Position numbers and translations under genes: made by a program
Part shown: positions 27,892-57,468 of the stretch, piece by piece
How positions within the stretch are numbered: the stretch's first letter is position 1
How the letters are laid out: each line of letters opens with the position of its first letter
Notes under the pieces: model-generated
What the model was told of the DNA's origin: nothing
What the model saw: the letters and a program-made list of their open reading frames with translations, nothing else
The model's database searches: none
Assembly: GCA_003220685.1 (NCBI GenBank)
Contig: QHTE01000061.1
Coordinates: forward strand, 62,001-126,000
Source: Candidatus Rokuibacteriota bacterium
GTDB taxonomy: Bacteria; Methylomirabilota; Methylomirabilia; Rokubacteriales; CSP1-6
Direction of reading: 5' to 3'
Length of the DNA: 64,000 nucleotides

Positions 27892-29051
27892 GCGACCTCG
27901 CGTTTTCGGGTGAGCGTCGGACCGAGCTCTACGGCCCGGAGCACGCGCACGATGCGCTCCGCCGCGTGCCCGTCTCCGTACGGGTTCGTCATGCCGGAGA
28001 GCCCCTCGCGGAAGCCCGGGGCCAGCACGGCCTCGATGCCGGCGAGGATCTCGTCGCGCTCCGGGCCGACGTCGATGACGTTGCCGGCACGCAGCCGACC
28101 CGCCTGCCGCGCGCCCACGTTGACGACGGGAAGCTCGAACGAGGGCGCCTCGATGAGCCCGCTCGACGAGTTGCCGACCATCGCGTCGGCCTCGCCCAGG
28201 AGCGAGAGATACACGTCGTCGCCGAGGGTCTGCGCCAGCCGGACGCATGGGTGCCGCCCGGCGAACTCCTGGAGGCGGGCGATCACGGCCCGACCGGCGG
28301 TATCGGCGTTGGGATAGGTCACGACGAACGTCGCGTCGATCTTCTCGAGGGCGGCGAGCAGCTCGTCGGTGTGCCGCGCCGTGTCCTGATACTCGAGCGT
28401 GGCGGGATGGTAGGTGACGATCAGCCAGCGATCGCCGGGGGCCAGATCGAGACGACGCGCAAGCTCGGCCCGAGTGAGCCGCGGCGTCGTCCGGATGCGA
28501 TCGAGCCCGGGCGCTCCGACGTTGTGGATCCGCCACGGCTCCTCGCCCATGGCGGCGACCCGCCGGGCGTGGGGCTCCGCGGACACGAAGTGCAGATGCG
28601 CGCACTTCGTGATCGCGTGGCGAATCTGGTTGTCGATGGCCCCTTCCGTCACCTCGCCGCCGTGCAGGTGTGCGACCGGCAGGACGAAGGGGAGCGCGGC
28701 GGCCGCCGCCGACAGCATCTCGAAGCGATCGCCCAGCACGACGACCAGGTCGGGACGGTGGCGCGCGTAGGCGCGTCCGAACCCCGCGACGCCACGGCCC
28801 ATCGACGCCGCGATCGCCTCCGGCGCATCCGACGGCTCGAGCATCTCGATCCGCTCGGCGATCGGCCATCCCTCGGCCTCGATCAGCTCGACGCTTCGAC
28901 CGAACGCGTCCGACAGGTGCATTCCGCCCACGAAGAGGAGCAGGCGCACGTCCGGGGCCGCTCGCAGCTCGCGCAGGACCGGGCCGAGGTGTCCCCAGTC
29001 CGAGCGGGCCACGGAGACCACCGCGATCGTCCGAGGCTCGACGGCACTCAC
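27888..29051 (-). CDS. UDP-N-acetylglucosamine 2-epimerase (hydrolysing), NeuC/LegG-like
   Basis: ARSDWGHLGPVLREL, VVLGDRFEMLSAAAAA, VAHLHGGEVTEGAIDNQIRHAITKCAHLHF, VGNSSSGLIEAPSFELPVVNVG. Confidence 0.94.
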   Translation of the reverse strand: MSAVEPRTIAVVSVARSDWGHLGPVLRELRAAPDVRLLLFVGGMHLSDAFGRSVELIEAEGWPIAERIEMLEPSDAPEAIAASMGRGVAGFGRAYARHRPDLVVVLGDRFEMLSAAAAALPFVLPVAHLHGGEVTEGAIDNQIRHAITKCAHLHFVSAEPHARRVAAMGEEPWRIHNVGAPGLDRIRTTPRLTRAELARRLDLAPGDRWLIVTYHPATLEYQDTARHTDELLAALEKIDATFVVTYPNADTAGRAVIARLQEFAGRHPCVRLAQTLGDDVYLSLLGEADAMVGNSSSGLIEAPSFELPVVNVGARQAGRLRAGNVIDVGPERDEILAGIEAVLAPGFREGLSGMTNPYGDGHAAERIVRVLRAVELGPTLTRKREVA

Positions 29052-30109
29052 TCCAGAGCCGTCCAGTCGATGACGTCGTCGGCTGCGAGATCCCTCCGGA
29101 CGCGACGGCCGAGGGCCCGCTCCAGATCGGCGGGCGACACGCCCGTGCCCGGGCGCTTGACCGCGACCGCGTCCTTCACGAGCTCTTCGCCGGCCCGGAT
29201 CGGGCGGGCCGCGACGAGGCTCTTGCGCGCGACCCGCCGCGTATCCAGCTCCGAGGGCATCGGGCGCTTCTCGCCGTCGCCGAGCGCCGCCTCGACGTTG
29301 CGGATGCCGCGGACCAGCGCGCCCATCTCGCCGGGCTCGAGCGAGGCGCGATGATCGGGGCCGGGCAAGGTCTTGTCGAGCGTGAGGTGTTTCTCCACGA
29401 TCACCGCGCCGCGCGCCACCGCGGCGAACGCGATCTCCAGGCCGAGCGTATGGTCCGAGAGGCCGACCGGGCAGCCGAATCGATCGCGCAGCGCGTCCAT
29501 CGCTCTCAGGTTCACGTCGCCCACGGGCGCCGGATACGCGCTGACGCAGTGCAGGATTGCGACCGGGACGCGCGAGGTGACGCGAATCGCCGTCAGGGCC
29601 GCCGCGACTTCGTCGAGGGTAGACATGCCCGTCGACACGATGACCGGTTTGCCCTTCGTCGCGATGTGGCGCAGCAGCGGAAGATTCGTGATCTCGCCCG
29701 AGGGCACTTTGAGCAGGGGCACGCCCAGGACGCCGAGCGTATCCACGCTCGCCTCGTCGAATGGCGTCGAGAAGAAGACGATCCGGCGCGCGGCAGCATG
29801 CGCCTGGAGGGATTTGAGCGTCTCGACGGAGAGCTCGAGACGCTCGAGCATCTGGCTCTGGCTCTCGCCGGCACCCGTCGTCTCGACCTGATACGCCGCC
29901 TTCGGCGCGGTCCGGCTCGTGAGCGCGGAGGTGCGAAACGTCTGGAACTTCACGGCGTCGGCGCCGCCGTCGGCGGCGGCGTCGATCAGCGCCCGCGCCA
30001 GCGCAGGATCACCATTGTGGTTCACGCCGGCCTCGGCGATCACGAACACCGGCTGACCGGCCGCGATCGTTCGGCCGGCGACGCTGAACGGGGCCGCCGG
30101 AGCGGTCAT
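29048..30109 (-). CDS. N-acetylneuraminate/nonulosonate synthase (NeuB/LegI-like) with C-terminal SAF domain
   Basis: FVIAEAGVNHNGD, DAVKFQTF, KVPSGEITNLPLL, STGMSTLDEV, LSDHTLG, EKHLTLD, KSLVAARPIRAGE. Confidence 0.96.
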   Translation of the reverse strand: MTAPAAPFSVAGRTIAAGQPVFVIAEAGVNHNGDPALARALIDAAADGGADAVKFQTFRTSALTSRTAPKAAYQVETTGAGESQSQMLERLELSVETLKSLQAHAAARRIVFFSTPFDEASVDTLGVLGVPLLKVPSGEITNLPLLRHIATKGKPVIVSTGMSTLDEVAAALTAIRVTSRVPVAILHCVSAYPAPVGDVNLRAMDALRDRFGCPVGLSDHTLGLEIAFAAVARGAVIVEKHLTLDKTLPGPDHRASLEPGEMGALVRGIRNVEAALGDGEKRPMPSELDTRRVARKSLVAARPIRAGEELVKDAVAVKRPGTGVSPADLERALGRRVRRDLAADDVIDWTALE

Positions 30110-32016: not shown

Positions 32017-32651
32017 GACAGACCTGCTGGGGCGCCGGAGCCCGCGACGCGCCCCCCCGCAGGAACGTCCCTCGCGACTCGCGCGCCAGCCGACACGACG
32101 GCCTCCTTGCCGATGACGACGCCGGGGACGACGATCGCGCCCGCGCCGACGAACGCACCGGCCTCGACGCACACGTCGCCACAGAGGATCACGCCGGGCG
32201 CGAGATAGGCGTGGTCGCCGATGCGGCAGCCGTGCTCGATCACGCTTCCGCTGTAGATCACCGCGTTCTCGCCCACGGACGCTTCGGCGCCGACGACGGC
32301 GTGCGGGAAGAGCGCGCTCCCGAGGCCGATCGTCGCCGAAGGCGAGATCACGGCGCTCGGATGCACCAGCTTTGGAGTCGGCACCCCGAGTTCACGGAGA
32401 CGTGCGAACAGCTCGGGGCGCCTGGCCAGCGCGGTATTCCCCACCCCGACGATCGCCTCGTCGAAGCGCCGCTCGGCGCAAAGCCGCACCAGGTCATCGT
32501 CGGAGCCGATGACGCCGGCGGTTGCCGGCGCGCCGCGCGCGCCGAGGAAGCCGGCGATGCTCCGGCCGCACGCTACGGCCAGATCCGCGACCGCCCGAGC
32601 GTGTCCGCCGGCGCCGAGGACGAGGAGGCGTCGGCCGGTGCCACCGCTCAC
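32013..32651 (-). CDS. NeuD/PglD-like sugar O-/N-acetyltransferase (LbH)
   Basis: RLLVLGAGGHARAVADLA, then left-handed beta-helix hexapeptides (GLGSALFPHAVVGAEASVGENAVIYSGSVIEHGCRIGDHAYLAPG). Confidence 0.92.
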   Translation of the reverse strand: MSGGTGRRLLVLGAGGHARAVADLAVACGRSIAGFLGARGAPATAGVIGSDDDLVRLCAERRFDEAIVGVGNTALARRPELFARLRELGVPTPKLVHPSAVISPSATIGLGSALFPHAVVGAEASVGENAVIYSGSVIEHGCRIGDHAYLAPGVILCGDVCVEAGAFVGAGAIVVPGVVIGKEAVVSAGARVARDVPAGGRVAGSGAPAGLS

Positions 32652-33373
32652 TGGCGCGATCCCGAGATGGGCGCTCGCCCCTGCCCCAAGATCAGCTCGG
32701 CGAGCAGGAAGTCCCACTCCGTGTCTATGTTGACCGCGGCCTCGAATCCCTGGACGATGGCGCGGTTGTCGGCCCCGAGAACGCGCCCCTCGGTCATCAA
32801 GACGTCGCGCCGTGTGACGTACACGGCGCCCGACGGCTGATAGACGGTCGGCGCGTCCTGCCGCCGGACGTACTTGTGGCCATCGGGGAAGAGCGCGACG
32901 GTGCGGTCGCCGTCGAGCGTCTTCATGAAGAATGGATGGTAGCTGGCCTCGGTCACGGTCTGCGCGGAGTCCGCCCCCGTATCGACCACCTTCGCCACGG
33001 TCCGGTCGATGTCGGCGCCGATTCGGAACGGCGAGGTCGGCTGCAGGGTAACGATCAGGTCGGGCCGCGCGCCGGCCGTCGTCTCGAGCCAGCGCACCGC
33101 GTGCTGGAGCACGGGGATCATGCCCGCCTCGTCGCTCGCCAGCTCGGCTGGACGCTGGAACGGCACCTCGGCGCCGTGCCGGCGCGCCTCGTCGGCCAGC
33201 GCCGCGCTGTCGGTCGAGACGATGAACCGCGTCAGCCGCGCCGACTCGCGCGCCGAGGCCACGGCATGACCGATCAGCGAGAGCTTCCCGAGGACGCGCA
33301 GGTTCTTGCCGGGCAGCCCCTTGGAGCCGCCGCGCGCCGGAATGACCCCGAAGACGTAGGGCGCGCCCGTCAC
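32648..33373 (-). CDS. Acylneuraminate/nonulosonate cytidylyltransferase (NeuA/LegF-like)
   Basis: VFGVIPARGGSKGLPGKNLRVLG, FIVSTDS, TLQPTSPFR, VNIDTEWDFLLAE. Confidence 0.94.
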   Translation of the reverse strand: MTGAPYVFGVIPARGGSKGLPGKNLRVLGKLSLIGHAVASARESARLTRFIVSTDSAALADEARRHGAEVPFQRPAELASDEAGMIPVLQHAVRWLETTAGARPDLIVTLQPTSPFRIGADIDRTVAKVVDTGADSAQTVTEASYHPFFMKTLDGDRTVALFPDGHKYVRRQDAPTVYQPSGAVYVTRRDVLMTEGRVLGADNRAIVQGFEAAVNIDTEWDFLLAELILGQGRAPISGSRQ

Positions 33374-33377
33374 GGCG

Positions 33378-34361
33378 TCAGACTCGGACCCAGCGGCGCT
33401 CGGACGCGGCGCGTCGGGCCGCGTCGATGACCCGCATGGTCCTGAGGCCGTCCCAGCCGTCGCACGCGGGAGTCGCCTCGCCCCGAACGCACGCCAGGAA
33501 ATGCCGCGCCTCCTCGACGTACATATCGTTGAGCTGCCCACCGAATGGATAGATCTCCCAGCGATTCGCCTTCGGATCGAACACGCGGATCTCGTTCTCG
33601 AACCGCCGCCACTGGATCACGCCGTCTTCGCCCATGATCTCGAGGTGGCTGTGGACGTTCCAGGCGAAGAGATTCATGTGGATGTTGCCGATCGCACCCG
33701 AGGCGAAGCGCACGGTGAGGTCGGCGAGATCGTCGGTGGAGATCTCGAGACTCGACACCCGATCGACCACGGCGCTCACCTCGACCACTTCGCCGAGGAG
33801 CCAGCGCATGTAGTCGATCGCGTGGCTCTCGTCGAGGAGACATCCACCGCCCTGCTTGACGTCGGCCATGTAGAAGCGCCGGTAGTCGGCGCCGGGATAG
33901 CGGGTCGACAGATGGTAGGCGTACTCGGTCCGACCGGCGCGCACCGCACCGATCCGTCCCTCTCGCAAGAGCCGCTCGGCGAGCTGCATCGGCGGCCAGT
34001 ACCGCCAGTTGTACGCGGTGAGCACCTTGAGCCCGCGCGCGTCGCAGGCGCGGAGGAGATCGTCGAGTCCCTCCGACAATCCGGCGAGCGGCTTCTCGAT
34101 CATGAGGTGCGCGCCGCGTGCCGCCGCCAGCCGCGCGATCTCGAGGTGCGAGGAGGGCGGCGTGCAGACGACGACGCCGGCCGCGCCGTCCAGCGCCGCC
34201 TCGAGGGTCGGCGTGATACGCGCGTACGGAAACTGCGCTCCAGCCGCGTTACGTTGTGTCTCGGTGGCGTCGTACGCCTGCAGCGCCTCGACACCGATCG
34301 TGTGGAAGTTGCCGAGATGCCGCCGGCCGATCGATCCGAGTCCGATCACGGCGATCTTCAT
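33378..34361 (-). CDS. Gfo/Idh/MocA family oxidoreductase
   Basis: MKIAVIGLGSIGRRHLGNF, VVVCTPPSSHLEIA, HLMIEKPLA. Confidence 0.94.
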   Translation of the reverse strand: MKIAVIGLGSIGRRHLGNFHTIGVEALQAYDATETQRNAAGAQFPYARITPTLEAALDGAAGVVVCTPPSSHLEIARLAAARGAHLMIEKPLAGLSEGLDDLLRACDARGLKVLTAYNWRYWPPMQLAERLLREGRIGAVRAGRTEYAYHLSTRYPGADYRRFYMADVKQGGGCLLDESHAIDYMRWLLGEVVEVSAVVDRVSSLEISTDDLADLTVRFASGAIGNIHMNLFAWNVHSHLEIMGEDGVIQWRRFENEIRVFDPKANRWEIYPFGGQLNDMYVEEARHFLACVRGEATPACDGWDGLRTMRVIDAARRAASERRWVRV

Positions 34362-35848
34362 GCGGGCAGTACTTCCTCCTTGTCGGCCGCGCGATGGAGT
34401 CGGTTCCACTCGATCTCGTAGGCCGCGATGCGCCGCAGGTCGCGCTGCACCATCAGCTGGCGTAGACCGTAGAGCTCGACCGCGTTGAACTTCTTCGAGA
34501 TGATGGCGGTCACCCGCGTGGCGTCTCCCAGATCCAGCAGGAAGGCCTCGAGATCTCCCCCGTATTGCCCGAGGATCCGGCTCTTGTAGGTCTGGTACCA
34601 CTCGGTCCCCGGGTAGGGTGTGGCGAAGAATGGCAAGGCGTTCAGCCCGAGCCGGTTCCAGGCGTGCACGTTGTCGCGGATCGAGTCGAAGTCCTCGTCG
34701 GGAAAGCCGATCATCTGATTCGGGATCGGCCGGATCCCTGCCTCCATCGTCCAGCGGAGCGAGCGCTCGTTGGTCTCGACGGTCGCGCCCTTCCCGATCG
34801 TCTTGAGCACCCGCGGTGAGAAGCTCTCGTAGCCGTAGAGCAAGTGGGAGCAGCTCACCAAGGTCGCGTGACTCGTGCCGCCCCAGTGCACGCCGGCGCA
34901 GCGCTCGGGATCGTGCGGAACGCCCTCGCGCACGCACTGGGGCTGGAGCCCCTCCTCGATCCAGAGGCGCGCGATCTCCGTCAGCCATTTCTTCCCCGAG
35001 GACTGGTGCATGGTCATCAGGTTCTCGTCGAGAAACCCGATGAAGTCGACGCCGAACCGCTCCCTGACGTGCTTGACGAGGTCCACCACGTACCGGGGAC
35101 TGTGGTAGCGGATCAACCGCTTGTACGTGAACGTCACGTCCCGCTGCCCGTCGCGGTCGACCGTGTGCTCCAGGTCGCCCGCGATGCCAAGGTGGAAGCA
35201 GAAGCGGCAGATCAGCGAGCAGCCGTAGCTCGCGTTGACGTCGAGCCGCCGGCGGGCCAGCATGCCTTCCTCGGAGAAGAGCGCCATGCTGTTCTTGAAG
35301 TACACGTCGAGCGGGAACAGGTCCCATGCTGGATACGGCAGCCGGTCGAGATCCTGCATGAGCGGCCGCTCCGGGTTGAGGTGGGAGCGACCACTCCCGT
35401 CACGCCAGACGAGCCCCGGCACCTGCGCCCAGTCCCGGCTGCCTGCGTCCAGCCGGCCGAGCAGCTCGGGAAACGACACGAAGGCCTCGCCGACCACCCC
35501 GACGTCGATCTGTGGGAGGAGCCGCATGATGTCGTGGGGCATGCTGGTGAGAAACCCGCCGCCGGCGACCACCAGCGCTTGCGGCGCGACCTCTTTGGCC
35601 ATCTGCACGACGTGCCTGATCGAGCGGTACGCCGTCGTGATCCCACCGATGCCGATCACGTCCCAGCGGTCGGCTTTCAAGATCTGGGCGAGGACCGCGT
35701 CGGGAGCGCGCCAGGCGTTGGCATCGTAGACCTGGACCAGGTGGCCCTCGCGCATCGCGATCGACGCGAGCAGCGCCATGCCGTACGGGACGTGGCGCGG
35801 GTCGTCCTCCTCCCGGATGATCGGATTGACGAACAGTACCTTAGCCAT
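34358..35848 (-). CDS. B12-binding domain radical SAM protein
   Basis: N-terminal Rossmann-type VLFVNPIIREED...; VVGEAFVSFPELL; NASYGCSLICRFC (CxxxCxxC). Confidence 0.92.
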   Translation of the reverse strand: MAKVLFVNPIIREEDDPRHVPYGMALLASIAMREGHLVQVYDANAWRAPDAVLAQILKADRWDVIGIGGITTAYRSIRHVVQMAKEVAPQALVVAGGGFLTSMPHDIMRLLPQIDVGVVGEAFVSFPELLGRLDAGSRDWAQVPGLVWRDGSGRSHLNPERPLMQDLDRLPYPAWDLFPLDVYFKNSMALFSEEGMLARRRLDVNASYGCSLICRFCFHLGIAGDLEHTVDRDGQRDVTFTYKRLIRYHSPRYVVDLVKHVRERFGVDFIGFLDENLMTMHQSSGKKWLTEIARLWIEEGLQPQCVREGVPHDPERCAGVHWGGTSHATLVSCSHLLYGYESFSPRVLKTIGKGATVETNERSLRWTMEAGIRPIPNQMIGFPDEDFDSIRDNVHAWNRLGLNALPFFATPYPGTEWYQTYKSRILGQYGGDLEAFLLDLGDATRVTAIISKKFNAVELYGLRQLMVQRDLRRIAAYEIEWNRLHRAADKEEVLPA

Positions 35849-41427: not shown

Positions 41428-41442
41428 GTTCAATAATTGAAC
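41428..41442. promoter_or_regulatory. Putative operator: perfect palindrome GTTCAA-TAA-TTGAAC
   Basis: 15 bp inverted repeat 8 bp upstream of the winged-helix gene start, AT-rich in a GC-rich context, overlapping its putative -10 box. Confidence 0.6.
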
Positions 41443-41462
41443 ATATCGGGTCTGCCTGTCAA
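41433..41462 (-). promoter_or_regulatory. Putative promoter of the winged-helix gene/operon (TTGACA-18-AATTAT)
   Basis: On the minus strand, TTGACA at 41457-41462, 18 bp spacer, AATTAT (4/6 to TATAAT) at 41433-41438. Confidence 0.5.
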
Positions 41463-41530
41463 CCTCTGCGGCCGGCCGGCCGGCGCGATGTTCCCGGGGG
41501 CCGCGGACGGCGGCGGGCCTGCCAATGAAG

Positions 41531-41560
41531 TTGACCGGGCTCGCGCCGCTACGCTACACT
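41531..41560 (+). promoter_or_regulatory. Putative promoter for the radical SAM gene (TTGACC-18-TACACT)
   Basis: -35 at 41531-41536, -10 at 41555-41560; followed by AAAGGAGAG upstream of the ATG at 41620. Confidence 0.45.
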
Positions 41561-41619
41561 CGCAGTCGCGGAATCCGCAGCGACGATCGCTCCAACGGAC
41601 ATCTCCGAAAGGAGAGCGA

Positions 41620-43323
41620 ATGCCCCCGGCCAAGCGTGTCACGTTCATCTATCGCAACTACGAGGGCCTCGGCATCGGCTACCTCGCCTCGTATGTGCGC
41701 TCGCTCGGCCATCAGGTTCAGCTCGCTCTCTACCCCGACCCCTGGTCCGACACCTACGTGAAGCAGAAGGACAAGGACAGCCCGATGGTGGGCCGCCTGC
41801 AGACCCGCGTGGATCGCCAGCTCCTCCGTGGGATCGTCGAGTTCGCGCCGGATCTGATCTGCTTCTCGACCGTCACCGACGACTACCAGTGGTGCCTGCG
41901 CACCGCGGGCACACTCAAGGCCGCGACGGGCGCGGTTACGATCTTCGGCGGGGTCCACGTCTCGAGCGTCCCGGAGCGCGTCGTCGTCCAACCCCACGTC
42001 GACCTGATCGGCCTCGGCGAGGGGGAGCGCGCACTCGGAGCCCTGCTCGAGCAGCTCGACGACTGGAAGGCGGGCGCGGACATCCGGATCCCGGGGATCT
42101 GGTACGAGCGCGACGGTGAGATTCGTCAAAACGGCCGGGGCGAGGCGATCCAGGATCTGGACAGCCTGCCGTTCCCGGCGAAGGATCTTTTCTACGCCGA
42201 GCTGCCCGGGCTCGCGCGCACCTACACCGCGACCACGACGCGCGGCTGCCCGTACAAGTGCACGTATTGCTACAACGCGGTGATGCTGCCGATCTATCGG
42301 CAGCAGGGCAAGTGGCTGCGCCAGCGCTCGGTCGACAACGTGATCGACGAGCTCGCGTGGGCCAAGCGAAGCTTCCACCCCCGGCACTTCCTGTTCATGG
42401 ACGACGTGTTCGCCAGCAACAAGAAGTGGGTCGAGCAGTTCACCGAGCGCTACAAGCGCGAGATCGACGTGCCCTTCGCGCTCATCACCGAGGCCGTGGT
42501 CCTGAACAAGGAGGACACGGTCCGGTGCCTGAAGGAAGCGGGCCTGGTCAACGTCCAGGTGGGCGTGCAGACGCTCAACGAAGACTCCAAGAAGAAGATC
42601 GATCGGCCGGAGTCGCGTCAGCAGCTCGAGAACGCGTTCACGCTGATGAACAAGTACGGCATCCACTACCAGGTCGATCACATGCTGGGAATCCCCGAGG
42701 AGACCGACGAGGACCAGCGGATCGCCCTCGAGTTCTACAATGAGTATCGGCCCGACATCGTGTCGGTTTTCTGGCTGAAGTACTACCCGAAGCTTCCGAT
42801 CATCGACCTGGCCCTCGAGCACGGCATCCTCAAGACCGAGGAGCTCGACGACATCGAGGAGGGACGCAACGAGGCGTCGTATCTCTTCGGCGGCAACGCG
42901 CCCGAGTTCAAGAAGTGGCTCGGCTACAACATGCTCTTCGGCTGGGTGAATTTCCTGCCCCGATCGGTCGTGCGCTGGTTCCTCCAGAAGGACCGATCGC
43001 GTCTGATCGCGTTCGAGTCGTTTTTCTTCGCGGCCTCGCTGCCGCGACTGCTCTCGACGGCGTTCCGGCGCCCCGACTTTCGCGGGCGCGACCACATCCG
43101 GCGGACCGTGGGACAGCTGCGCTACATCGGACGGCTGGTGATGCGCGACTGGCTCGATCGCCGTGATCGGAGCGGCAGCGTCACACCGGCGCCGCGGACG
43201 GTCGTCCCGAGCGCGACGCGGCCCACGCTGCCGGGGGGCGCCACACCGAGTGTGCCGGCGGTCGACTCGCCGACCATCGTCGGGCGCCGGTCGGGCGGCA
43301 AGATCGCCGCGGTCGGACGCTGA
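41620..43323 (+). CDS. B12-binding domain radical SAM protein
   Basis: GGVHVSSVPERVV, LGEGERALGALLE, TTRGCPYKCTYCYNAV (CxxxCxxC), DDVFASNKKW; strong RBS. Confidence 0.94.
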   Translation: MPPAKRVTFIYRNYEGLGIGYLASYVRSLGHQVQLALYPDPWSDTYVKQKDKDSPMVGRLQTRVDRQLLRGIVEFAPDLICFSTVTDDYQWCLRTAGTLKAATGAVTIFGGVHVSSVPERVVVQPHVDLIGLGEGERALGALLEQLDDWKAGADIRIPGIWYERDGEIRQNGRGEAIQDLDSLPFPAKDLFYAELPGLARTYTATTTRGCPYKCTYCYNAVMLPIYRQQGKWLRQRSVDNVIDELAWAKRSFHPRHFLFMDDVFASNKKWVEQFTERYKREIDVPFALITEAVVLNKEDTVRCLKEAGLVNVQVGVQTLNEDSKKKIDRPESRQQLENAFTLMNKYGIHYQVDHMLGIPEETDEDQRIALEFYNEYRPDIVSVFWLKYYPKLPIIDLALEHGILKTEELDDIEEGRNEASYLFGGNAPEFKKWLGYNMLFGWVNFLPRSVVRWFLQKDRSRLIAFESFFFAASLPRLLSTAFRRPDFRGRDHIRRTVGQLRYIGRLVMRDWLDRRDRSGSVTPAPRTVVPSATRPTLPGGATPSVPAVDSPTIVGRRSGGKIAAVGR

Positions 43324-43366: not shown

Positions 43367-44203
43367 TCAGACCAGACGTCTTCGCGCGCAGAGAAGGTCG
43401 ACGTACCCGCGAATCCCAAGATGTCGCTCGGGACGATTCGCGTCAAAGGGCTCGATCGACGCCCCCTCGCCGAGGGCGTGGACGACGAAGCCGTTCGCGC
43501 GAAGAAACTCGAGGACCTTGTCCGGAGCCAACCCGAGCTCGCGGATCGCGGCGGGCGCATACTCGAGGGCCAGGCACACGTCCGCGCTGGCGCGCACCGT
43601 GGCCGCCATCCCCTCGCAGACGGCGGGCTCGTAGCCCTCCACGTCGATCTTGATAAAGCGCACCGCGGATTCGATGCCGCGCTCGCGGGTGAATGAGTCG
43701 ATGCTCACCTGGCGGACCGTGTCGGTGGTCGCGACCCCGCGCCCGGAGCGAAAGGCGTCGGTGCTGATGCGGTGGCCCGCGTGGTGGCGCTGGTCGCGCC
43801 ACAACCCGATCGTGCCGTCGGTCGCGCCGACCGCCGCGTGGATCGCCTCGGACCGCTCGGCGAACCCGAGCCGGCGGAGCGCTCGCACGAGCCGCTCGTA
43901 GTTGCGGAGCTCCGGCTCGAAGGCGAACACCTTGAAGCTGGGGCCGAGCGCGCGCGCGAACACGGCGGCGGTGTACCCGACGTTGGCCCCGACGTCGAGG
44001 ATGTGGCCGCCGCGGAACAGATCCGGACGCCGGCGCGTCAGGGTCGCGAACGGGTCTCCCAGGCGCTTGTACGCGAAGTACGTCCGGACGAAGAGGTCGG
44101 AGACCACCGGATTGTCGAGAAAGCCCAGGCGATTCACCACGCCGTAGGCGCCGTGGAGGCGATCGACGACGAAGAACCGCCAGTTCATTTCACGCCCGGG
44201 CAC
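43367..44203 (-). CDS. FkbM family methyltransferase
   Basis: GGHILDVGANVGYTAAVFARALGPSFKVFAFEPELRNYERL, VRFIKIDVEGYEPAVCEGM. Confidence 0.93.
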   Translation of the reverse strand: MPGREMNWRFFVVDRLHGAYGVVNRLGFLDNPVVSDLFVRTYFAYKRLGDPFATLTRRRPDLFRGGHILDVGANVGYTAAVFARALGPSFKVFAFEPELRNYERLVRALRRLGFAERSEAIHAAVGATDGTIGLWRDQRHHAGHRISTDAFRSGRGVATTDTVRQVSIDSFTRERGIESAVRFIKIDVEGYEPAVCEGMAATVRASADVCLALEYAPAAIRELGLAPDKVLEFLRANGFVVHALGEGASIEPFDANRPERHLGIRGYVDLLCARRRLV

Positions 44204-44213
44204 TTTGGGGCGG

Positions 44214-45917
44214 TCAAGCCGGTGGCCGTCGGGCCAGCTCCCAGAACGGCTCGAGTCGCTCGCCGAAGAGATAGAGCGGCGCCTTGCCCTCTTCCCAGTA
44301 CGAGAACACCTGGCGCGTCGCGTACGTCTTTCGCAGCCCCTCGAAGAACACCTCGAAGTCTCGCGCGGTCAGCGGCTGCGATCCGCGGGTCGGCGCCTGG
44401 TTGATGCCGATCAACGAGTACGGGCTCGGCACGAAATTGTAGACGAACACGCGCTGCCGGCTGTCGAGCCGCTCGTGAATCGCCTCCGTGATGGCGCTGA
44501 ACGCTTCGTCGCTCGTCGTCCTGATCAACGCGTCCTTCACGTGGATGTGCTCGCCGACGCGGTCGAAGACGGAGTCGATGCCCGATTCGGTCGAGATGAA
44601 GAGGTCGCTCTGTCGGAAGTCGCGAGCCTGACGTTGGATCAGGCGCTCCTTCAGCTGACCATACTGATACCAGGGGCGGATGCCGCCCCACACGTTGAGC
44701 GCGAAGACCACGAGCACCAGAGCGAGCGCGCGCCACGCGGCACCGCGCGGCGATCGGGTCGCGGCGGTGTCCTCCGCCGACAGGGCGATGGCCCCGAGCA
44801 TCAGCAGAAGGATGAGCGGCGGGAGCGTCACGACCTGGTACTTGGTGACCGAGGGCCAGAATCTCGCGTGGAAGATCGCGTAGGTCACCAGCCACACTCC
44901 CCCGCTGATTGCCGTGGCGAGGCGGGCGCCGCGGATGAGGCGACGGGCCCCCCAGAGATCCGAGGCCAGCAGGATCATGAGAAGGCCGGCGAGCGCCGTC
45001 AACGCGACCAGCGACGCGACCTTCCGGTGGGCAAGCGACACCAGGCCTCGCGCCGAGTCGAACACGACCTGGGTTCCGGCCACGAAGGCGGTCAGCTGCC
45101 CTTTGACGACCCGCGGGATGTCGAAGCGTGTCGCGTGCTCGAACGCCTGGTAGTCCTGTGCTCTTCCGAGCGAGTATGAGAGCCATCCGCCGAAGTAGTA
45201 CCAGCAGTACCAACCAAACGTACCGACCCCGAACCAGACAGCCAAGAGCGCGAGCCCTGCCCCGACGAGGACAGTCCCGAAGACTCCCGCCAATCCATAG
45301 ATCAACGCATCGCGCGCGCCATCCCGCCACGGGCGGCCGATGGCGAGGAGCGCGACCGCCGCGAAGCCGAACAGGAAGTTCTCTTGACGGAACGCCACGG
45401 CGAGTGCATTGAGCAAGCCCATCAGCGCAACGAATCTCCAGTGAAATTCCCTGTTGTCGACACGCGCGCTGACGAGCAGATAGAAGATCACCAGTAAGAT
45501 CACGAGCGAGAGGTGCTGGCGCTCGCCGTTGGCGAAGTGCCAGTAGCCGAACGACACGGCCAGGAGCCCCGACCCGACGGTGCTGGCGAGCCAGCCTCCG
45601 AGGAGGCGGAGCACGCGGTAGAACACGACGACGCCGGCGCCGCCCACCAGGGCGTTGACCGCCTGGATCACCGCGAGCGTCGAGATCGGGACGCGCAGCA
45701 CATCGAGCACGCGCCGCAGCAGGTACATCAAAAGCTGAGTCCCGGTTGATGTCGGATGGAACAGGAACCCGTAGTCCGGCTTGTCGATGCTGATGACGTA
45801 TAACCCGCCGTCCGGGGGAGGAACCGACGAGAACGTGAGGCCGTACAGCAGAACGACTCCGACGAAGAGCGCGATCTCGGTCAGATAGCGCCGCTCCGCG
45901 ACGGGGGGAGCATCCAC
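44214..45917 (-). CDS. Polytopic membrane protein, GT-C-like glycosyltransferase candidate
   Basis: Multiple TM segments; N-terminal luminal-type loop SSVPPPDGGLYVISIDKPDYGFLFHPTSTGTQLL; C-terminal soluble domain. Confidence 0.65.
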   Translation of the reverse strand: MDAPPVAERRYLTEIALFVGVVLLYGLTFSSVPPPDGGLYVISIDKPDYGFLFHPTSTGTQLLMYLLRRVLDVLRVPISTLAVIQAVNALVGGAGVVVFYRVLRLLGGWLASTVGSGLLAVSFGYWHFANGERQHLSLVILLVIFYLLVSARVDNREFHWRFVALMGLLNALAVAFRQENFLFGFAAVALLAIGRPWRDGARDALIYGLAGVFGTVLVGAGLALLAVWFGVGTFGWYCWYYFGGWLSYSLGRAQDYQAFEHATRFDIPRVVKGQLTAFVAGTQVVFDSARGLVSLAHRKVASLVALTALAGLLMILLASDLWGARRLIRGARLATAISGGVWLVTYAIFHARFWPSVTKYQVVTLPPLILLLMLGAIALSAEDTAATRSPRGAAWRALALVLVVFALNVWGGIRPWYQYGQLKERLIQRQARDFRQSDLFISTESGIDSVFDRVGEHIHVKDALIRTTSDEAFSAITEAIHERLDSRQRVFVYNFVPSPYSLIGINQAPTRGSQPLTARDFEVFFEGLRKTYATRQVFSYWEEGKAPLYLFGERLEPFWELARRPPA

Positions 45918-45918
45918 G

Positions 45919-46512
45919 TCAGTCCGCGGGAGTCAGCCGCTTGGAGTTTGGTCCGAAGTGCCTGAGGTAGTCCTGCTTGTGGAGAATGAACTGGTGATCG
46001 GCCAGGTAGATCGAGTTGTTCTCCCGCCCGAACAGGCGCGCCCGCCGCTCGATCATGTCGATGTCCTGCTGGTCCTTCTCGATCTTCAGCCGCTCGATGG
46101 CCTTGCGGATCCAACGGCGGAAGGGATAGAGCCAGAAGGGCATGTCGAGCTCCATCTCGAGCGTGCTGAGCGTCGAGTTCCGCTCGGGAATCTCGGTGTA
46201 GACCAGGCGCGTGGTGGTCTGCATCACGTGATGGATGCTCGGAATCCACCACGGGTGGGGCTTGATGTCGTAGTTCCGGAGCTCGGCTGGCGGGATGTAC
46301 TCGGTCATGCATGTCTGGCCGAGCCGGAAGCCGAGCAGCGACCAGGTCTCGCGGATGAAGATCTTCCGGGCCGCCAGGTCGTGCCAGAGCACCTCGTACG
46401 TGTCCGAGTACTTCTTGTGCAGGAACACGTAGTGCTCGGCGTCCAGGTAGACGGCCACCGCGATCGCCAGCGGCGTGTCGATCTCGTACTCGAGCGCGAA
46501 CCGGTACTTCAC
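45919..46512 (-). CDS. SRPBCC-like protein resembling the catalytic domain of Rieske oxygenases
   Basis: VYLDAEHYVFLH (DxxHxxxxH; H27/H32) and KDQQDIDMIERR (candidate third ligand D150). Overlaps the Rieske gene by 4 nt. Confidence 0.7.
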   Translation of the reverse strand: MKYRFALEYEIDTPLAIAVAVYLDAEHYVFLHKKYSDTYEVLWHDLAARKIFIRETWSLLGFRLGQTCMTEYIPPAELRNYDIKPHPWWIPSIHHVMQTTTRLVYTEIPERNSTLSTLEMELDMPFWLYPFRRWIRKAIERLKIEKDQQDIDMIERRARLFGRENNSIYLADHQFILHKQDYLRHFGPNSKRLTPAD

Positions 46513-46928
46513 TCTCGGCCTCGCGTCCGGCTGACGTACGCCCGGTCACCGATCACGGTGTAGGCCAGCAGGGTCAGCGCGTACCGCGGCGCCCGCTCCG
46601 GCCTGAAGCACTCGGTCGGCTCACGCAGCGAGGCCATGATCCGCTCGTTCGGATTGTCCCGGAGCGCCCCCGTCGCCACGTCGAAGAGATAGCCGTGCCA
46701 CGGGCACTCGAGCGTGCCGTCTTTCCGACAGTAGGTCGCCTGGCTCAGCGGGCCGCCCATGTGGGGACACGCCTCGCGCAGCACATAGAGCTTGTCGCCG
46801 TCCGGGATCACGACGACCTCGACGCCCTCGCCCACGTCCCTCACCTGCACGACTCCGCGGTGCAGGTCACGCAGCTCGATCGGGCGCGGATAGAAGGCGT
46901 CGGCGGGGCCGGGCGGCGACTGGGTCAC
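46509..46928 (-). CDS. Rieske [2Fe-2S] domain protein
   Basis: EACPHMGGPLSQATYCRKDGTLECPWHGYLFDVATG (CxH...CxxH). Confidence 0.94.
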   Translation of the reverse strand: MTQSPPGPADAFYPRPIELRDLHRGVVQVRDVGEGVEVVVIPDGDKLYVLREACPHMGGPLSQATYCRKDGTLECPWHGYLFDVATGALRDNPNERIMASLREPTECFRPERAPRYALTLLAYTVIGDRAYVSRTRGRE

Positions 46929-46935
46929 GCTGGCC

Positions 46936-47679
46936 TCAGCACTCCGCGTGGATGAGCATGGAGCCCGAGATCGCGCGCAGCAGCGGCACCCGCTCGAGCC
47001 GCTCGGTGATCGGCTCCATCAGCGGCAGGAGCGACGCCGGGATCGCCGGATGGAGAAAGTCGAAGTACGTCACTGCGAAGCGCCGGAAGCCGATACGCCG
47101 CAACACGCGCGTGATCGCCCGCCGGGTGAACGCCATCTCGTCCGGCGAGCCGCCGTAGTGGACCTTGAGCGGCTCGCACTTGAACATGAGCAGCACCTGA
47201 GGATTCGTGAGATTCGGCTCCGAAAACACGAGGCGCCCCCCGCGACGGAGGACGCGACGGGCTTCCTGGAGGGCCACCTCGACGTCGAGGTGGTGGAGGA
47301 TCGAGCAGCCGTAGACCACGTCGAAGGATCCGTCGCGGAACGGAAGGGCTTCGGCGTTGCCGCGGACGAACCGGGCCATGGCACCGACCTTCGCGCGGGC
47401 CTTGGCCAGGAGATCCCCCGAGAGATCGAGCGCGACTACCCGGGCGCCCGACGGGGCCACACGCCGCGTGAACTCCCCGGTGCCGCACCCGAGCTCCAGC
47501 GCGCGCGTGCCGGGCGCGATGCGACCCGTCGCGACGAACAGGCGCCCGCGGCGATCGGCGCGAGCGCGGCCGACCGGCGAGTTCCAGCCGAGGATGGTCT
47601 CGGTATCCCGCGCGGCGACGCCGTCGAAATGCTCGAGCTCTCGGCCGAGACGATCCTCGGCCGGTGCAGCCATCGCCAT
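46936..47679 (-). CDS. Class I SAM-dependent methyltransferase
   Basis: ALELGCGTGEFTRRVAPSGARVVALDLSGDLL, FDVVYGCSILHHLD. Confidence 0.93.
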   Translation of the reverse strand: MAMAAPAEDRLGRELEHFDGVAARDTETILGWNSPVGRARADRRGRLFVATGRIAPGTRALELGCGTGEFTRRVAPSGARVVALDLSGDLLAKARAKVGAMARFVRGNAEALPFRDGSFDVVYGCSILHHLDVEVALQEARRVLRRGGRLVFSEPNLTNPQVLLMFKCEPLKVHYGGSPDEMAFTRRAITRVLRRIGFRRFAVTYFDFLHPAIPASLLPLMEPITERLERVPLLRAISGSMLIHAEC

Positions 47680-47683
47680 GTCC

Positions 47684-48376
47684 TCAGAAGCCGCCGTCTC
47701 GCCGCAGCTTCGCCCGGGTCATGCACCAGAGCATCTTCAGGCCGTCGCGAAACGCGTTCACCTTCGACTTGCCGGCCGTGCGGGCCTTCTCGGCCGACGG
47801 GATCTCGGCGAACTTGAACCCGGCGCGCTGGGCCTTGATCAGGAACTCGAGGATGTACTCGAAGCCCGGCGACGTGGCCGTGATCGCCTGGGCGACCTCG
47901 CGCCGGACCGCCGCGTAGAAGAAGAGCGCGTCGGAGATCTCGACGTGATACATCGCGCGGAACAGGAGCGTGAACGCCTTGTTCCCGACGTAGCGGATGA
48001 CCGTGTCGTCGTCGCTGCCGGACTCCGGCAGGTAGCGGGAGCCGAGCGCGAGATCGGCGCCCTCCCGCACGCGCTGGACGAGATGACGGACGTCGTCCAG
48101 CTCGTACGACCCGTCCGCGTCGGCCAGCACGATGATGTCGCCCGTCACGTGGCGAAAGCCGGTGGCGATCGCGTCGCCGTAGCCGCGACCCGGCTGCTGG
48201 ACCACCGCGCATCCGAGGCGGGCGACCAGCTCGGGGGTTCCGTCGGTCGAGTGCCCGTCCACGACCAGCACCTCGTCGACGACGTCCCGAGGAACCTCCT
48301 TCAGCACGGCCTCGATCGAGCCCACCTCGTTCAGGGTCGGGATGATCAGAGAGACCTTCTCGCCGAGCTCGTTCAC
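47684..48376 (-). CDS. Glycosyltransferase family 2 (polyprenol-phosphate mannosyltransferase-like)
   Basis: VSLIIPTLNEVGSIEAVLKEVPRDVVDEVLVVDGHSTDGT, VLADADGSYE. Confidence 0.93.
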   Translation of the reverse strand: MNELGEKVSLIIPTLNEVGSIEAVLKEVPRDVVDEVLVVDGHSTDGTPELVARLGCAVVQQPGRGYGDAIATGFRHVTGDIIVLADADGSYELDDVRHLVQRVREGADLALGSRYLPESGSDDDTVIRYVGNKAFTLLFRAMYHVEISDALFFYAAVRREVAQAITATSPGFEYILEFLIKAQRAGFKFAEIPSAEKARTAGKSKVNAFRDGLKMLWCMTRAKLRRDGGF

Positions 48377-48921
48377 TTGTCCGCCTCCACGTTCAGGCTG
48401 ATGAGGACGCCGCGCTCCTTGTCCATGTGGGGGATGTACGCCTGCGAGAAGTCGTCGTGGTCCTTATGGATCGTCTGGCGCCAGTCGTAGCGCCTCGCGC
48501 CGCGGAAGCCGGCCGATTCGAGGGTCGAACGCAGGCTGTCGAAGTCGTACACCGTGCGGTGGTAGAGGACCCGCGGTCCGCTCGCGGTCGGGATCTCGAT
48601 GCGCCCGTAGAGGGGCCCGTGGACGAGCGCGAGGTTGCGCGTCTCTCGGTAGACCTCGGTCATCGCGTCGAAATCCGGCACCGCCAGGCGCAGCACGCCG
48701 CCGTGCTTGAGGACGCGATGCCACTCGCGCAGGACGTCGACCACCTCGATGCGGTCGAAGTACTCGATCACGTGGCAGGCGTAGATCAGGTCCGCCGTCT
48801 CGTCCTTGAACATCGGCAGGGTGCGGAGATCGCTCTGGTGATCGACGTGAGGCAGGTCGGCGAGGTCGACGTGGACGAACCCCGGTAGATATCGCCGGCC
48901 GCAGCCCAGATGCAGCTTCAC
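48373..48921 (-). CDS. SAM-dependent methyltransferase-like protein
   Basis: VKLHLGCGRRYLPGFVHVDL, ADLIYACHVIEYFD, VLKHGGVLRLAVPD. GTG start. Confidence 0.88.
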   Translation of the reverse strand: MKLHLGCGRRYLPGFVHVDLADLPHVDHQSDLRTLPMFKDETADLIYACHVIEYFDRIEVVDVLREWHRVLKHGGVLRLAVPDFDAMTEVYRETRNLALVHGPLYGRIEIPTASGPRVLYHRTVYDFDSLRSTLESAGFRGARRYDWRQTIHKDHDDFSQAYIPHMDKERGVLISLNVEADK

Positions 48922-50036
48922 GCGGACGTCCTGGGGCCGCCGCGGTAGAACGCGCGGATCTCGTCGCAGATGCGGCGGACTGTCCGGTCTTCCAGGAAGG
49001 ACGACGACGGAAGCCAGAGACCCTGGCGCGAGGCGCGCTCGGTCTCGGGAAAGCTCCCGGGCTCGCGATAGGGCGCCTGGGTGTGGATCGGCGGATAGAA
49101 CGGGCGCGACCCGATCCCGCGCTCGTGCAGGAATTGTCGCAGCGTCGCCGGATCCGGGACCAGCACGTCGATGAACCACGGCGAGGTCTCGCTCAGGTTC
49201 GTCTCGACGAAGGTGACCTCGGGAACGTTCGCGAGCTCGGATCGGTACAGCGCGAACAGTTCCTTCTTGCGCTGGACGCGCCAGTCGAGCTTCGTCATCT
49301 GCGCCAGGCCGATGACGGCCTGGAGGTCCGTGAACTTGAAGTTGTACCCGAGCGCGATGTGCTCGTCGACGCCGTCCCGCAGTCGGCCGAAGTCCTTGAT
49401 CTTGCGTATGGCCGCGATCAGCGCGTCATCGTCGGTCACGAGCGCGCCGCCCTGGCCCGTCGTGATCACCTTGGGGCTGCTGAAGGAGAAGCTGCCGACG
49501 GCGCCGAACGTGCCGAGGTGCTTGCCCCGCCACCGCGAGCCGAGCGCCTGCGCCGCGTCCTCGACCAGGAGCACGCCGCGGTCCCGAGCGAGCGCGACCG
49601 CGCGATCCATGTCGGGCGCGCGACCGTTGAAGCTGACCAGCATGATCGCCTTCGTGCGCGGCGTGATGCGGCGCTCGGCCTCGGCGAGGTCGAGACAGAG
49701 GGTCGCGCGATCGATGTCCACGAAGCGCGGGGTCGCGCCGGTCAGGAGCACGGCATTGGCCGAGGCGATCATCGTGAGATCCGGCACGATGACCTCGTCG
49801 CCGACGCCGACGCCCAGCGCCGCCAGCGCCGCGAACAGGCTGACGGTGCCGTTCATGACCACCGAGACGTGCCGCGCGCCGATGTAAGCGGCCAGCGCCT
49901 GCTCGAACTCCCGGGTGCGGCGGAACTCGGTCAGCCATCCGCCCGAGTCGAGATAGTCGACGACGGCCTTCTTCTCTTCCTCGCCGAGCCACGGTTGCAT
50001 CTGCACGACGTAGTCCGAGCCGGAGCCGGTCGTCAC
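48918..50036 (-). CDS. DegT/DnrJ/EryC1/StrS aminotransferase (perosamine synthase-like)
   Basis: QPWLGEEEKKAVVDYLDSGGWLT, VEDAAQALGSRWRGKHLGTFG, SFSFSSPKVITTGQGG. Confidence 0.93.
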   Translation of the reverse strand: MTTGSGSDYVVQMQPWLGEEEKKAVVDYLDSGGWLTEFRRTREFEQALAAYIGARHVSVVMNGTVSLFAALAALGVGVGDEVIVPDLTMIASANAVLLTGATPRFVDIDRATLCLDLAEAERRITPRTKAIMLVSFNGRAPDMDRAVALARDRGVLLVEDAAQALGSRWRGKHLGTFGAVGSFSFSSPKVITTGQGGALVTDDDALIAAIRKIKDFGRLRDGVDEHIALGYNFKFTDLQAVIGLAQMTKLDWRVQRKKELFALYRSELANVPEVTFVETNLSETSPWFIDVLVPDPATLRQFLHERGIGSRPFYPPIHTQAPYREPGSFPETERASRQGLWLPSSSFLEDRTVRRICDEIRAFYRGGPRTSA

Positions 50037-57255: not shown

Positions 57256-57468
57256 ATGAGCACTCGTGAGCCGCTCGATTCGATGCTGCTCTGCTACTGC
57301 ACCAACCTGACCATCGGCGAGCTCCGCGAGGCATGCCTCGCCGGGAAGTGGCCGCTGGCGGAGAAGGAGCGGACCGGCAAGCTCTGTACCGGCTGCGTCG
57401 GCGACCTCCTCTACTGTCTCCGGCGCTTCGGCGTGGCGCCGACCTTGCGCCTCACGCTCGACGACTAG
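57256..57468 (+). CDS. BFD-like [2Fe-2S] mini-ferredoxin (70 aa)
   Basis: LLCYCTNLTIGELREA...TGKLCTGCVGDLLYCL; four Cys spaced CxC...CxxC. Confidence 0.75.
   Translation: MSTREPLDSMLLCYCTNLTIGELREACLAGKWPLAEKERTGKLCTGCVGDLLYCLRRFGVAPTLRLTLDD

Follow-up and report, generated by a model that had tools for sequence, protein, structure and literature searches.

Rieske oxygenases are normally defined by the presence of both metal domains in one alpha-subunit chain, while Rieske ferredoxins pass electrons to separate enzymes and NirD-type Rieske domains belong to nitrite reductase. In CntA, E205 is the bridge and H208, H213 and D323 form the iron triad; the Rieske cluster of one subunit hands its electrons to the iron of the adjacent subunit over 12 A, the two centres within one subunit being 44 A apart (PMC7948474). 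The working pair of centres in CntA is thus already on two chains, which means that a covalent linkage of the two domains is not chemically necessary. The CAO of Micromonas, made of two polypeptide chains, converts chlorophyllide a in purified form with VanB and NADPH (PMC9615114; the two-polypeptide MpCAO of Micromonas pusilla is credited there to Kunugi et al. 2013). Since this two-chain enzyme is active, the one-chain layout is not universal among Rieske oxygenases. A search of the open-access literature, whose limited coverage makes it no proof of absence, found no other split Rieske oxygenase in bacteria.

Two further groups, both with one chain, are relevant for comparison. The first is DUF5914 (PF19299), the CrtV type of carotenoid clusters, an assignment which we infer from the position of DUF5914 genes after the phytoene synthase gene. 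The second is the VanA-type monooxygenases (PF19112, VanA_C), which have a larger catalytic domain than the protein described below.

Results and Discussion

The window (the whole stretch of 64,000 nucleotides analysed) carries two overlapping genes on its minus strand, p1 (46509-46928) and p2 (45919-46512). With a probability that we estimate at roughly 0.6, p1 and p2 together form a two-chain Rieske-type oxygenase in which p2 would be an iron chain of the Rieske-oxygenase type paired with p1. The product of p1 is a Rieske [2Fe-2S] protein of 139 aa, which matches PF00355 (Rieske) in Pfam with E=6.5e-14 and carries the cluster ligands C54-P-H56 and C75-P-W-H78, i.e. C-x-H ... C-x2-H. p2 encodes a 197-aa protein of the SRPBCC superfamily with D24-x2-H27-x4-H32 and, further on, D150-x4-E155, and is the proposed mononuclear-iron chain. 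The start codon of p2 is the GTG in ...GAGTGA, which runs into the stop codon of p1, and the stop/start overlap of the two genes is the 4-nt GTGA at 46509-46512 (minus strand). H32 and D150 are 118 residues apart, compared with 110 in CntA. The residue numbering of D24, H27, H32, D150 and E155 was verified, and in all these respects (CPH...CPWH as Rieske ligands in 46509-46928, an overlap of 4 nt, the exact positions of D24, H27, H32 and D150, a spacing that fits oxygenases) the preliminary description was accurate.

A scan covering 85,462 species genomes yielded a sole close relative of p2, situated at a locus (L002) on a 3,046-base contig, QHVJ01000507.1, from a soil MAG labelled Acidobacteria. 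No p2 was found in the 95 genomes of the window's own phylum besides the source genome, plasmid records and viral contigs contained no relative of it, and no close copy was found in other genomes of the order to which the MAG with L002 belongs. The gene order of L002 is that of the window (end of a DegT gene, methyltransferase, GT2, methyltransferase, Rieske gene, p2), the same 4-nt overlap between the Rieske gene and p2 is kept, and identity to the window is 76-77% for p2 and 66% for p1. D24, H27 and H32 are all conserved in L002 and lie in the longest block invariant between the two proteins, residues 16-42 of p2. The known p1/p2 pairs number only two, and the contig of the second ends before the position of D150. 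Occurrence of an identical gene order in an Acidobacteria-labelled MAG is a consequence either of horizontal transfer or of a binning error, the latter being possible because the contig is short.

This second locus also bears on whether the pair is a single alpha-subunit gene that has been broken or mis-assembled, by a fission artefact or a recent frameshift. The same motif does occur in fused Rieske-DUF5914 proteins, but the MAG with L002, an independent one, repeats the overlap and the two-gene layout with identities of 66-77%, and the Rieske domain of p1 does not group with those of DUF5914 or other oxygenases. Since L002 has the same layout we reject such an artefact, which we consider extremely improbable.

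Among the matches within the phylum, p1 is nearest to NirD-fused, ferredoxin-type and DUF2231-like membrane-linked Rieske domains and not to oxygenases. In a tree of 44 Rieske domains, the sampling of which was enriched for the best matches of p1 itself, it clusters with NirD and ferredoxin Rieske domains, its nearest relatives by this tree (support 95/83), and is placed apart from the Rieske domains of DUF5914, VanA and phthalate-type oxygenases. Trees in which p1 is forced to the oxygenase side are worse by 3.4-12 log units, a difference that does not lead to their rejection (p-AU 0.17-0.35). From its relatives, which are donors to separate enzymes or part of nitrite reductase, p1 differs by a long branch and by N- and C-terminal extensions of its own. 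To judge from this placement, recruitment of a ferredoxin-like Rieske protein would be at least as likely an origin of the pair as gene fission of an alpha subunit. The window's genome has 22 Rieske matches, many of them in long oxygenase-like ORFs, and the iron motif of one locus in it (L005), DIDTCHTVFLH, is close to LDAEHYVFLH of p2.

No family for p2 was found in Pfam or NCBIfam and no meaningful match among PDB sequences; comparison with oxygenase families and structures (Pfam, NCBIfam, PDB, profile comparison) likewise gave no significant direct match. The sole PDB match, 9b9g (E 0.029), covers 25 residues of a phosphatase chain and was dismissed as chance. Direct alignments (hhalign) of p2 with DUF5914 or VanA are not significant, and these weak alignments superpose DxxHxxxxH exactly. 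AlphaFold models of p2 alone and with L002 reached a pLDDT of 34 and 45, respectively, too low to use.

The motif itself was compared with chance by 200,000 shuffles of p2. DxxHxxxxH occurred in 2.2% of the shuffled sequences, together with an Asp 100-130 residues further on in 0.8%, and with a distal D-x4-E in the same range in 0.1%. Position-specific matrices trained only on Rieske oxygenases (n=8 for the first motif, n=7 for the second) have their best scores in p2 at D24 and D150, with a combined shuffle p of 0.0003 (0.03% of shuffles). Taken alone, the distal motif of p2 does not reach significance (p 0.20), and it is the first motif and the spacing that carry the signal; the distal sequence, DIDMIERR, resembles DREMLERQ of VanA and DLAYAERR of DUF5914. 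Four ordinary SRPBCC controls, scored with the same matrices, gave p values of 0.02-0.6 and best scores at other positions. The ordinary SRPBCC proteins of the phylum (L034, L035, L037, L039, L042 and L044 were kept as controls) have neither His at the positions of H27 and H32. D24 is the least specific residue and weak evidence alone, since ordinary SRPBCC proteins also have an Asp there.

The nearest non-orthologous relatives of p2 are two stand-alone proteins, about 25% identical to it, from two genomes of the same class as the window. L025 (1477-1932, plus strand; 151 aa, motif YFDLEHIAHVH) was found over the phylum by a two-sequence profile at a loose threshold, and L032 (1501-1965, plus strand), which is 66% identical to it, by a search with L025. 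Both are shorter than p2 (151-155 aa), have no Rieske domain in the chain and keep the D, H, H and D of the oxygenase-type iron motif. D24, E26, H27 and H32 are among the 23 invariant columns of an alignment of p2, L002, L025 and L032, and D150 aligns on the Asp of EEDLEV/DEDLAV in L025/L032. None of 3,000 shuffles of L025 and L032 scores as well as the real sequences with the oxygenase-trained matrices. In L025 and L032 the motif is kept and the flanks examined contain no Rieske gene, so that the motif is independent of a Rieske neighbor. An ORF resembling pterin-4a-carbinolamine dehydratase adjoins L025, as read by eye. A truncated L025-type copy in the window's own genome (L033, 1507-1764, plus strand, contig C25), which the search with L025 also brought out, looks like a gene remnant, with the C-terminal half alone readable and without the His motif. 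The weak matches L024 and L026-L030 were inspected and dropped, being without matching context.

VanA_C is the best Pfam match of L025 and L032 (E 0.0077 and 0.017), at 16.8 and 15.7 bits, respectively, which is below the curated gathering score of 23.5 bits; p2 has no match. L032 also weakly matches DUF5914 (E 0.12, 12.5 bits against a gathering score of 27 bits), a family for which p2 again has no match and whose cut-off is passed by no genome of the phylum searched. DUF5914 is the nearest fused family to p2 by profile search, sharing with it a short catalytic domain and DxxHxxxxH with a distal D-x4-E-R; it differs in having one chain and a carotenoid context, in giving no significant direct match to p2, and in that other Rieske domains are closer to p1 than its own. 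When p2, L002, L025 and L032 were combined in one profile and run on 396 Acidobacteria genomes, the best match beyond L002 (L048, E 0.008 per genome) was a 310-aa chain in which DUF5914 (E 1.2e-65) comes after a Rieske domain, with LDPWHGVHFH aligned on the p2 motif. A second fused Rieske-DUF5914 match, L097, from the order of G095, has E 0.029 per genome. In hhalign comparisons p2/L002 matches the L025 group with E 7.8e-4, and the L025 group matches DUF5914 with E 4.5e-5 in an alignment of 128 columns that spans both motifs, the distal Asp included. Remote homologues would in this way tie p2 to the catalytic domains of Rieske oxygenases through intermediates, L025/L032 and then DUF5914, and L025/L032 may possibly be Rieske-free members of the same catalytic-domain family.

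These comparisons allow a different explanation, in which p2 is an ordinary iron-free SRPBCC protein, START-like and ligand-binding or cyclase-like, and p1 an ordinary Rieske ferredoxin that shares the operon by chance. The only Pfam match of the p2 from L002 is Polyketide_cyc2 (PF10604, E 0.061), L025-type proteins align with ordinary SRPBCC proteins too (hhalign E 8.1e-7), and p1 itself falls with ferredoxin/NirD Rieske domains. It follows from the second of these points that membership in the superfamily alone is no proof of an iron site and that the specific residues matter. There, however, the ordinary proteins of the phylum fail the motif test, which p2, L025 and L032 pass with H27, H32 and D150 all kept; moreover, this explanation gives no reason why p2 should be so closely and consistently paired with a Rieske gene. 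We consider it rather unlikely.

It is also conceivable that p2 is a true non-heme iron protein, descended from Rieske oxygenases, that needs no Rieske subunit of its own, p1 being a general electron donor, perhaps to some other enzyme that the cluster encodes. This is in accordance with the ferredoxin-like character of p1 and with L025/L032, which have the same motif and stand alone. On the other hand, p1 and p2 overlap and stay paired at both known loci, and the cluster genes that were scanned include no other oxygenase requiring a Rieske donor, which makes this second explanation quite improbable in our view.

The two-chain oxygenase remains our preferred reading, and the surroundings of p1 and p2 bear on what it would act on. 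In the window as in L002, the immediate upstream neighbor of p1 is a class I methyltransferase gene (Methyltransf_11, 46936-47679), followed by a GT2 family glycosyltransferase (47684-48376) and a second class I methyltransferase (48373-48915, ORF open to 49179), both with an equivalent position in L002, and by a DegT/DnrJ/EryC1/StrS sugar aminotransferase (48918-50036), the C-terminal end of which opens the L002 contig. Directly downstream of p2 lies the gene for a 567-aa hydrophobic protein (44214-45917) with no Pfam match, which by eye resembles a GT-C-type membrane glycosyltransferase, and then an FkbM-family methyltransferase (43367-44203); all of these are on the minus strand. The genes around the pair include, besides these, NDP-sugar epimerases/dehydratases, other methyltransferases and an ABC transporter, and further cluster genes encode radical SAM-B12 proteins (34358-35848, minus; 41437-43323, plus), an MptE-like protein, NeuB (29048-30109) and a NeuA-like cytidylyltransferase (32648-33541). 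The methyltransferase and glycosyltransferase flanks mentioned in the preliminary description are, as far as gene content tells, part of a glycan cluster with a nonulosonic-acid-type branch, and the upstream methyltransferase is conserved with the pair in L002. The region 28000-52200 of the window reads as one large glycan cluster, with an ABC exporter and the MptE-like protein among its products. The nearby genes that were examined did not include one for a reductase. At 57271-57468 (plus strand) the end of an ORF has the look of a BFD-type [2Fe-2S] protein, small and rich in cysteine (CYCTNLTIGEL...CTGCVGDLL), with no Pfam match.

The pair would most likely act on a sugar or a lipid-linked intermediate belonging to the glycan cluster around it. 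DUF5914 oxygenases, too, are known from clusters with a methyltransferase gene, and for the Rieske oxygenase CrtaV and the methyltransferase CrtaT of a Streptomyces carotenoid cluster hydroxylation and then methylation was proposed (PMC5993118). Our best guess for the window is a similar sequence of hydroxylation and methylation on a glycan intermediate, the product possibly being methylated by the neighboring methyltransferase.

Iron binding, complex formation, activity, electron path and substrate are what we infer for the pair, in the following form. p2 would be the catalytic chain, of the helix-grip (SRPBCC) type, and hold one O2-activating iron by H27, H32 and D150, and p1 would carry the Rieske cluster and feed electrons to that iron from the adjacent chain. 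D24 could bridge the p1-p2 interface, as the corresponding residue does between neighboring subunits of one-chain Rieske oxygenases. The 4-nt overlap might bring about translational coupling and so help equal production of both proteins, and a reductase would have to be encoded elsewhere. The inter-subunit electron step, together with the precedent of the active two-chain Micromonas CAO, makes a two-chain oxygenase a plausible mechanism. MpCAO resembles the pair in having the Rieske cluster and the mononuclear-iron site (in p2 a proposed one) on two chains; it differs in being eukaryotic, from a green alga, and in acting on chlorophyllide, and we assume independent descent.

Conclusions

The pair is likely an unusual variant of Rieske oxygenase, with a published eukaryotic precedent for its two-chain layout. 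From the preliminary description, which had proposed a split Rieske oxygenase, the pairing stands as conserved and the motif as being in register with oxygenase catalytic domains, but the splitting of an alpha subunit is unsupported, p1 being in the ferredoxin/NirD group with the alternative not rejected. Conservation of H27, H32 and D150 is complete in L025/L032 and extends to both His in L002, as far as that contig reaches. The search of p2 against oxygenase models, proposed at the same time, gave nothing significant directly, the chain to DUF5914 running through L025/L032, and the fused homologues that were sought turned up at the level of remote homology. A further reading, which we hold to be less likely than not, is that the two chains are separately derived, a ferredoxin-type Rieske protein having been recruited to a Rieske-free iron domain, and act on a glycan or lipid-linked sugar.

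A two-gene bacterial form with a ferredoxin-like Rieske protein would, if true, mean that a catalytic iron domain can get its electrons in trans, offer a small system for the inter-subunit electron step, and put Rieske oxygenase chemistry in glycan assembly. If the recruitment reading is true, L025 and L032 would show that the iron domain exists on its own, as a module open to pairing with a donor in trans, and such stand-alone relatives suggest that more Rieske-free members may hide among unannotated proteins.
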